A stretch of DNA of 37,985 nucleotides from Candidatus Zixiibacteriota bacterium. Its GTDB lineage: Bacteria > Zixibacteria > MSB-5A5 > GN15 > FEB-12. The stretch's first letter is position 1, and each line of letters opens with the position of its first letter. The notes under the pieces are model-generated. The model was not told the origin of the DNA. It did no database searches and saw nothing but the letters and a program-made list of their open reading frames with translations. This document shows positions 25,707 through 27,689 of this stretch, piece after piece. Made by a program: the position numbers and the translations under genes. The stretch is taken from contig CP070674.1 in NCBI GenBank assembly GCA_020351995.1, positions 623,876-661,860 on the forward strand, written 5' to 3'.

Positions 25707-27146
25707 CTATTTGCCCAGAGCTTTCCTGACTCCCTCGGCATAAGCCGGGTCGGCCTTGGCGAAATGCCCGAGCTGACGCTCGATAATTTCGTTCGGTACC
25801 CCTTTCATGGCCCCGGCGACAGCCTTGTGCAGGCGGTCTCGTTCGCCATCGGGCATGAGGCGATAAAGATTCCCGGCCTGCGTGTAATCATCGTTACCTT
25901 CGCGATGATCATACCGGTCCGCGTCGCCGGATATCACAAGCGGCGGCTCCTTGAACTTATGATCTTCAGCGGGGCCGCCAAAGCTGTTCGGCTCATAGTT
26001 GACATCACCGCCGGAGTTGCCATCAAAGCGCATCTTTCCGTCACGATGGTAAACGTTGACATTCGCTTTCGGACGATTAACCGGAAGACTCTCATAATTG
26101 ACACCAAGACGATATCTGTGAGCGTCGGCATAAGAGAAAATCCTGAACTGAAGCATCTTGTCGGGGCTATGACTGATCCCCGGTACCATGTTAGCCGGTG
26201 AGAAGGCCGACTGTTCTACGTCGGCGAAATAGTTCTCGGGGTTGCGGTTCAGTTCCATGACACCAACATCAATTAGCGGAAATTCCCCGTGCGGCCACAC
26301 TTTGGTCAGATCAAAAGGATTGTAGGATGTCTTCTCGGCCTGCTCTTCGGTCATGACCTGAACCTTGAGATTCCACTTCGGAAAGTCTCCTCGCTCAATC
26401 GCCTCAAAGAGGTCTCTCTGATGGCTCTCCCGGTCGTTAGCGATGATAGCGGCTGACTCCTCCGATGTCAGGCACTCGATACCCTGCGCGGTCTTGAAAT
26501 GAAATTTCACCCAGACCCGTTCGTTCTTGGCGTTGACCAGGCTGTAGGTATGGCTGCCGTAACCGTTTAGATGACGGTAGCTTCGGGGTAGTCCGCGATC
26601 GGAGAAAAGGATCGTTACCTGGTGTAAACTCTCAGGTGACAATGACCAGAAATCCCACTGCGTGGTGTTGCTTCTCAGGTTGGTCTTGGGATCCCGTTTT
26701 TGGGTGTGAATGAAATCCGGGAACTTGTACGGATCACGCACGAAGAATACCGGGGTGTTATTTCCAACTAGGTCCCAGTTGCCTTCATCGGTGTAGAACT
26801 TCACCGCGAATCCTCTCACATCGCGCTCGGCATCGGCAGCACCGCGCTCACCGGCGACCGTCGAGAAGCGCAGAAAGCAATCCGTCTTCTTGCCGACTTT
26901 CGAGAAGATACTGGCCTTGGTGTACTTGGTGATATCGTGGGTGACGGTCAAGGTCCCGAAAGCGCCCGATCCCTTCGCATGCACCACCCGTTCTGGAATG
27001 CGCTCACGGTTGAAATGGGCGTGCTTCTCGAACAGTTGCCAGTCCTGCACTAACAGCGGCCCGCGCGGTCCGGCTGTAAGTGAGTTCTGGTTGTCACCCA
27101 CCGGGATACCGGCTGAAGTGGTCAGTTGTTTCTTCTTTTTCTCCAT
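25707..27146 (-). CDS. katA: Monofunctional haem catalase, clade 3 (KatA type)
   Basis: The protein has 479 residues, the normal small-subunit length. It disproportionates H2O2 to water and oxygen with haem b. The distal histidine is His56 ([12 protein letters not shown]), the distal asparagine is in VGNNTPVFF (129-130), and the proximal ligand is Tyr339 in [14 protein letters not shown]. All are intact, and [11 protein letters not shown] and [11 protein letters not shown] are typical. No signal peptide is present, so it is cytoplasmic. ATG 27146 has AGGAGG 9 nt upstream, a strong site. The perR gene ends 110 bp upstream on the same strand, so peroxide-dependent co-regulation is expected from the well-known PerR-katA pairing. 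Confidence 0.97.
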
Positions 27147-27255
27147 TATTGTTGCCTCCTTTTGAAGTTCACTTTAGCATGGCCGGCCATAGTCGGAGCC
27201 ATATGACCGTTTTATTGTCTTTAGTTTTGGCGAGATGCAGCCCCAGCGGAAGATG

Positions 27256-27654
27256 TTACTTCTTCTTGCGTCGACCCCGCATTATAACCTGATACTCGCT
27301 GATCTCAAAGCCCTTCAGCCTTTCTTTTTCGGTAATCTGCAGATGATCCCACGGAATATCGTAGATATCGCCCGTCTCGTTGTCTATAAAGTGATGGTGC
27401 TTTCCCATGTTCGGGTCGAAGAAAACGGTACCTTCCTTGAGAAGCTGGGTTTTCAGTAATCCTTTCTTGACCATCAAATTGAGCGTGTTGTAAACGGTTG
27501 CCCGCGAGACCGTAGGGCACTTTTTACGGGCATGCTCGAGGACCTCATCGGCCGAAGGATGCGCCCGGGTATTTAGAACATAGTCAACAACCGCTATCCG
27601 CTGCGGCGTGGGCTGTATATGGCACTCTCGCAGAACTGAAATGGCGTCTTTCAT
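27256..27654 (-). CDS. perR: PerR-type Fur-family regulator lacking structural zinc cysteines
   Basis: The protein has 132 residues. The winged helix with SRATVYNTLNLMVKKGLL (about 50-67) is typical of Fur proteins. The five ligands of the B. subtilis PerR regulatory metal site align at a constant offset: His32, Asp80, His86, His88 and Asp99, including the aspartate that favours PerR over Fur. The two CXXC zinc motifs are missing: the first site reads HHHFIDNETGD and the tail ends in RGRRKKK. Peroxide sensing by metal-catalysed histidine oxidation is therefore plausible without structural zinc. It stands before the catalase gene and probably controls it and itself. ATG 27654 has no ribosome site, and the promoter predicts a leaderless mRNA. 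Confidence 0.93.
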   Translation of the reverse strand: MKDAISVLRECHIQPTPQRIAVVDYVLNTRAHPSADEVLEHARKKCPTVSRATVYNTLNLMVKKGLLKTQLLKEGTVFFDPNMGKHHHFIDNETGDIYDIPWDHLQITEKERLKGFEISEYQVIMRGRRKKK

Positions 27655-27658
27655 CGTA

Positions 27659-27689
27659 TTAGAATAAGTCTAAAATTAGACACTGTCAA
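27659..27689 (-). promoter_or_regulatory. perR promoter with Fur/PerR-type operator in the spacer
   Basis: On the minus strand TTGACA (27689-27684) and TATTCT (27666-27661) are 17 bp apart, and the ATG of perR begins 6 nt after the -10. The spacer holds GTCTAATTTTAGAC (27668-27681, 6-bp arms). The overlapping TTAGAATAAGTCTAA (27659-27673) resembles a 7-1-7 PerR box. Binding here would block RNA polymerase, which suggests autorepression. Confidence 0.65.

Follow-up and report, generated by a model that had tools for sequence, protein, structure and literature searches.

The window is the whole stretch of 37,985 nucleotides analyzed here, taken from the forward strand of contig CP070674.1 (positions 623,876 to 661,860; assembly GCA_020351995.1) of a Candidatus Zixiibacteriota bacterium. 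An open reading frame with an ATG start encodes a protein of 132 amino acids (the window protein) that belongs to the FUR family, and the gene is followed on the same strand by a catalase gene. The features of the locus are collected in Table 1.

Table 1. Features of the perR-like locus, in window coordinates.
Feature	Position	Strand	Basis or remark
perR-like gene, FUR family without CxxC	27256..27654	minus	ORF, PF01475, HMMER alignment
His32 codon (B. subtilis PerR H37)	27559..27561	minus	HMMER alignment, relatives
Codons 80-99: D80, H86, H88, D99 (PerR D85, H91, H93, D104)	27358..27417	minus	
Codons 91-94, Asp-x-x-Thr at the place of the first CxxC	27373..27384	minus	Alignment
Putative operator	27659..27681	minus	Conserved sequence upstream of relatives
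Sigma-70-like promoter, TTGACA-17-TATTCT	27661..27689	minus	Overlaps operator
Promoter-like TTGAGA-16-TATAAT, 11/12	27281..27308	minus	Inside perR 3' end, upstream of catalase
perR-catalase intergenic region	27147..27255	minus	Without second operator
Monofunctional catalase, 479 aa, presumed target	25707..27146	minus	109 bp downstream of perR

The window protein matched the FUR family model (Pfam accession PF01475) over residues 14-125, scoring 78.8 bits where 23.1 is required. A HMMER alignment matched its residues 1-103 to residues 6-108 of the Bacillus subtilis PerR (PDB 2FE3) without a gap, which gives the constant offset of five and confirms the five sensing ligands that an earlier note on this DNA had placed at His32, Asp80, His86, His88, and Asp99. 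The PerR-type asparagine of the recognition helix was also present (N56, the equivalent of Asn61; Asn rather than Arg). In the same alignment, C96 and C99 of the B. subtilis protein fell on D91 and T94. The C-terminal CxxC motif was missing as well, the chain ending in GRRKKK, and the only cysteines of the window protein were C11 and C46. The absence of both motifs, also claimed in the note, was therefore borne out, and the structural Zn(Cys)4 site, which is usual though not universal in PerR, is missing. This absence was not treated as excluding a PerR, because the Leptospira PerRA and PerRB sequences are without the site too. Both, as well as Irr, are described as having no cysteinate motif in two reports (PMC8638851, PMC8638967), where Asp and Asn are also given as distinguishing PerR from Fur, although Irr has both.

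The window protein scored below the cut-off of each of the nine NCBIfam models listed. These included PerRA (87.3 bits against a cut-off of 200), PerRB (80.9 against 250), TransRegPerRClab (80.1 against 180), and TransRegPerRTherm (55.6 against 200), while the Irr models fitted about as well as the PerR ones (IrrA, 84.6 against 150; Irr, 81 against 170). A sequence search of the PDB returned the Leptospira PerR structure 5NL9 as the best match (6.2e-19; 1e-25 with a profile), followed by the B. subtilis PerR.

A single-chain AlphaFold2 model was built from eight sequences, namely those of the window and of the loci L033-L039. It had a mean pLDDT of 80.2 (the lowest of the five models reached 60.5), with values of 51-67 from residue 101 on, and displayed the Fur layout across its whole length. 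In VIA-align comparisons, the Z score was 15.0 to the Magnetospirillum Fur (4RB3), 13.7 to 5NL9 (rmsd 2.7 over 131 residues), and 13.1 to the B. subtilis PerR-Zn-Mn structure, and Foldseek placed the Magnetospirillum Fur at the top, with the B. subtilis PerR next and 5NL9 in 19th place. The fold comparison of the predicted model confirms the superfamily and leaves the PerR and Fur branches unseparated. At the place of the first CxxC, the alignments displayed D-x-x-T in 5NL9 and D-x-x-S in the Magnetospirillum Fur (4RAZ), and it may be that this motif is often replaced by an acid-x-x-hydroxyl turn.

Within the phylum of the window, 26 close relatives (E <= 1e-25) were found in 24 of 132 genomes, including the window's own; the three other listed genomes of the same genus had none at this threshold. 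A scan of named genomes gave ten loci. Four of their records had Zixiibacteriota in the title, and Ignavibacterium, Proteobacteria (L038), and Gemmatimonadetes (L039) were each named by one; the remaining three loci were distant. The perR proteins of L033-L037 are those of the phylum genomes G042, G030, G090, G131, and G073 and were counted once. Hence, the set of distinct relatives comprised 28 sequences including the window gene, 26 from the phylum together with L038 and L039. The record titled Ignavibacterium sp. (DYGG01000022.1, L033) carries the same perR protein as contig C51 of G042, a genome that belongs to the same taxonomic order as the window genome, and its title may be a mislabel.

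All five ligands, H87, N56, and D91 were invariant among the 28 relatives, position 94 was T in 24 and S in four, and a CxxC motif was found in none. The conservation of the ligands and the asparagine throughout the set upholds the PerR-type identity proposed by the note, and the family score, the invariance of the ligands and D91, and the lack of CxxC in every relative show that the pattern is not a chance feature of one gene. The histidine cluster H86-H87-H88 occurred in every sequence and, together with H32, accounted for all invariant histidines. The C46-P47 pair was present in 26 sequences and C11 in 19; L038 and L039, in which C46 is missing, contain no cysteine at all. The window's own genome (3.6 Mb, one contig) encodes two PF01475 proteins, the window protein and L001. 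The latter has two CxxC motifs, Glu at the place of Asp104, and Arg at the place of Asn61, features that indicate an ordinary Fur/Zur type.

The site at 27659-27689, which the note put forward for a check of DNA binding, was found to hold both a palindrome and a sigma-70-like promoter. The palindrome GTCTAA-NN-TTAGAC (27668-27681) overlaps a TTAGA-N5-TCTAA repeat (27659-27673), and each has one exact copy in the 3.6 Mb genome. On the minus strand of the window, the promoter overlaps GTCTAA-TT-TTAGAC and TTAGACTTATTCTAA, and its -10 hexamer lies six bases from the perR ATG. The box is weak on its own, with 0.77 occurrences expected per window at one mismatch, and it is supported because it is conserved upstream of the relatives.

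This conservation was scored with the pattern TTGACANNGTCTAANNNNNNACTTATTCTAA, which has 23 specified letters and covers the operator and the promoter. The pattern was at most three letters off in 20 of the 28 genes, four to seven letters off in six (L052, L056, L061, L070, L039, and L045), and 11 letters off in L055 and L047. When each upstream region was shuffled 300 times, the observed fit was reached by no shuffle in 24 of the 28 cases, the exceptions being L070 (fraction 0.013), L045 (0.003), L055 (0.28), and L047 (0.47). The pattern was chosen from 19 upstream regions, to which its fit is partly by construction; among nine loci fetched after this choice, eight were within four letters. 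The distance from the pattern to the start codon was 4 or 5 in 25 of the 28 genes (2 in L059, 8 in L038, and 11 in L039), with the start codons of some relatives set by hand. In the window's own genome, the longer pattern occurred once within three mismatches, at perR. Reversed-pattern controls gave one match each as well, so this genome-wide uniqueness is weak by itself.

A Shine-Dalgarno sequence was not visible before perR, which makes a leaderless transcript likely; the catalase gene has AAGGAGG. The perR transcript is thus probably leaderless with the operator on top of its promoter, an arrangement predicted from the missing Shine-Dalgarno sequence and the short spacing, which is kept in most relatives. 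The putative operator is a palindromic sequence conserved over the promoter. A second, weaker site resembling GTCTAA-NN-TTAGAC was observed among the relatives about 20 bases past the perR stop codon and before the enzyme gene, with a shuffle fraction of at most 0.017 in 12 of 25 regions. No such second operator was found in the perR-catalase intergenic region of the window (12 mismatches, fraction 0.77). The promoter-like sequence in the 3' end of perR was one of six such matches in all, compared with 1.4 in shuffles. The perR and catalase genes would share one transcript, and the catalase may additionally have a promoter of its own, independent of the operator. A search of the window's own genome for a second regulon target gave no convincing candidate, as matches with one or two mismatches were no commoner than those of the reversed-pattern control.

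Several further occurrences were noted. One operator-like site of the own genome, with one mismatch, lies within L090, and an exact palindrome was present in contig C14 of G123, near unclear ORFs. Two genomes of one genus carry second perR copies, L045 (G050:C93) and L047 (G042:C51), at distances of 28 kb and 22 kb, respectively, from the copy next to katG. Their neighbors, named by eye, are genes resembling those for a lipoprotein and a Ser/Thr kinase, and their operators are degenerate, with 7 and 11 of the 23 letters off.

A peroxide-removing enzyme was encoded directly downstream on the same strand in 25 of the 28 genes. The enzyme was KatG in 15, a monofunctional catalase in eight (the window, L052, L055, L056, L061, L064, L068, and L070), a di-haem cytochrome c peroxidase in one (L038, where the start of a katG gene follows further downstream), and a peroxiredoxin in one (L054). 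The three genes with no such neighbor were L063, which is at a contig end, and the second copies L047 (G042) and L045 (G050). The window catalase, three further catalases, ten KatG proteins, and the cytochrome c peroxidase were named by profile; the other loci were named by tblastn at >=68% identity, with either the window catalase or the KatG of L044 as reference and with many matches truncated at the end of the DNA, and the peroxiredoxin was assigned by eye from its motif, as were the names of unscanned neighboring genes. The four kinds of enzyme belong to families that are unrelated to one another but act on one substrate, and peroxide is therefore the likely common theme of the swapped neighbors. 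Together, these gene orders constitute strong comparative evidence in favor of what would be a peroxide-responsive repressor.

The peroxiredoxin gene itself displayed an unusual feature. On the minus strand of L054 (positions 1-300; G013:C93), an in-frame TGA occupies the place of the peroxidatic cysteine (FTFV-stop-PTE), which suggests a selenocysteine enzyme. The contig ends shortly after this codon, and a search for selB in the genome G013, which is 84% complete, gave zero matches over the cut-off.

Phylogenies were constructed from two alignments. The first included 62 of 70 rows after the removal of five same-contig duplicates, two Acaryochloris paralogues, and one row with a stop; the second included 61 rows, with L042 also removed, and had the CxxC columns and the C-terminus masked. 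Six rows represented Irr, five of them annotated as Irr or IrrA and one from S. meliloti added by likeness. The window clade was supported at 97/87 with all columns and at 97/91 with masked columns. With all columns, the Irr rows clustered by themselves (100/100), on a branch of length 1.49 and apart from the window clade; the window clade, Irr, and PerRA were joined at 99/91, and the window clade was grouped with PerRA at 98/73. With masked columns, the grouping with PerRA was found in 4% of the bootstrap trees (AU 0.374), the grouping with Irr in 36% (AU 0.389), and a single zinc-free group, which needed three changes, in 10% (AU 0.34). None of these three groupings was rejected by the AU test, and the program warned of long branches, including that of PerRA. 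We do not claim that the zinc-free state arose once, as support for this fell from 99/91 to 10% once the CxxC columns and the C-terminus were masked. The conjugative plasmid pREC1 of Acaryochloris marina (L074) contains four FUR-like genes within about 6 kb, three of which are annotated only as "transcriptional repressor".

Given these observations, we consider the window protein likely to be a repressor of the PerR type that responds to peroxide and lacks structural zinc, as the Leptospira PerRA does. Fe2+ (or Mn2+) would be bound by H32, D80, H86, H88, and D99, and the dimer would sit on the operator, where its overlap with the -35/-10 region would shut off perR and the catalase gene behind it. 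H2O2 would react with the bound iron and oxidize a ligand histidine, whereupon the metal would be lost, the repressor would leave the DNA, and catalase would be made. The C-terminal dimerization domain is predicted to retain a Fur fold in which the hairpin is closed by D91-x-x-T/S94-G, a role played by zinc in ordinary PerR. The overall reading of the note thus stands with regard to the PerR-type identity and the missing zinc cysteines. Its proposal that the dimer must be stabilized differently is reasonable, but it is not novel, having already been published for the Leptospira PerRA (5NL9). Its further suggestion of a change in how peroxide is sensed found no support: the ligands and the asparagine are kept in all 28 relatives, and PerRA, without the cysteines, is described as a bona fide PerR. 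Since PerRA, PerRB, and Irr are all devoid of structural zinc cysteines and PerRA nevertheless represses catalase, the loss of zinc need not change sensing.

Three other readings of the window protein were weighed against a peroxide-responsive PerR. It could be an Irr-like haem or iron regulator in which H86-H87-H88, perhaps with C46-P47, binds haem, so that the catalase follows the supply of haem or iron. The near-equal IrrA and PerRA scores, the absence of CxxC together with the presence of the PerR-type Asp and Asn in Irr, the conservation of the histidine cluster and of C46-P47, and the share of Irr groupings among the masked bootstrap trees are all in keeping with such a regulator. So are the linked enzymes, 24 of the 25 being haem proteins. 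Irr is described as binding haem at Cys29-Pro30 and His117-119, and the haem motif of the Bradyrhizobium Irr as an N-terminal Cys-Pro. However, no Cys-Pro precedes the FUR domain of the window protein, where the Bradyrhizobium motif lies (a mark that perhaps does not apply to every Irr), L038 and L039 are without C46, and the Irr rows stand apart from the window clade when all columns are used. Moreover, the peroxiredoxin beside L054 contains no haem, and a haem or iron-uptake gene was not noticed beside the perR-like gene when the neighboring ORFs were read by eye. We therefore regard an Irr-like regulator as unlikely. A Fur that responds to iron, controls catalase, and does not sense peroxide would agree with the family assignment, with the Magnetospirillum Fur as the top fold match, and with the absence of the first CxxC from the aligned stretch of that protein (4RAZ). 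Yet the two marks that separate PerR from Fur, Asp rather than Glu at 99 and Asn rather than Arg at 56, point to PerR in all 28 relatives, the adjoining genes encode peroxide enzymes, and L001 of the same genome is better suited to the Fur role; this reading is accordingly very unlikely.

A structural zinc site made of other residues could draw on C11 and C46, the latter being widely kept. Both cysteines, however, are in the DNA-binding half, C11 is absent from nine of the 28 sequences, two relatives have no cysteine whatsoever, and the only invariant histidines are H32 and H86-88, all of which makes such a site very improbable. A combined reading was also considered, in which the window protein reads both peroxide and haem through a histidine cluster common to the PerR site and an Irr-like haem site, helped by C46-P47 in 26 of the 28 relatives. 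We give this only a very slight chance. If true, haem catalases would be produced only under peroxide and with haem available, and the loss of structural zinc would belong to the same shift.

Zinc-free PerR was already known from Leptospira, and what is surprising here has thus been published for another organism. What is new is a clade of zinc-free PerR proteins with a conserved operator and promoter, centred on what is probably the Zixibacteriota; the finding is real and mostly ordinary, and the genomic context of the clade is unusually clear. It extends the zinc-free PerR past Leptospira, to 24 of 132 genomes of the phylum and to one Pseudomonadota and one Gemmatimonadota record. Among the literature matches listed, no title on structural zinc or on Leptospira PerR announced another zinc-free PerR, and no relevant title was found for Zixibacteria and PerR. 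The 28 distinct sequences provide material for learning what holds zinc-free dimers together, and the exchange of KatG, catalase, cytochrome c peroxidase, and peroxiredoxin beside one regulator provides clean comparative evidence for its role. The clade also offers a small, non-pathogen system for asking if structural zinc affects the redox behavior of PerR.

Among known regulators, the Leptospira interrogans PerRA (LIMLP_10155), for which the crystal structure 5NL9 is available, resembles the window protein in its five ligands, the Asp and Asn marks, the absence of CxxC, the Fur fold, and the control of catalase, the window catalase being a presumed target. Both have D-x-x-T-G at the place of the first CxxC (the two stretches compared being IDEKTGEIYDI and IDNETGDIYDI). 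They differ in phylum, share 28-32% identity in structural alignments, and, unlike PerRA, the window perR is directly upstream of a catalase gene. The B. subtilis PerR (2FE3, 3F8N), whose regulon comprises catalase and peroxide functions, has the same regulatory site at the offset of five and the same recognition-helix asparagine, whereas it contains both CxxC motifs and the Zn(Cys)4 site, neither of which is found in the window protein. The Irr and IrrA proteins of Alphaproteobacteria have no CxxC, carry Asp and Asn, and in part of the rows include the histidine cluster; the window protein differs from them by the missing Cys-Pro before the FUR domain, and its clade by adjoining genes of peroxide enzymes. 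In a review (PMC10294975), PerRA is characterized as a bona fide PerR, with the ank-katE operon and the genes for AhpC1 and CCP as the targets that it represses.
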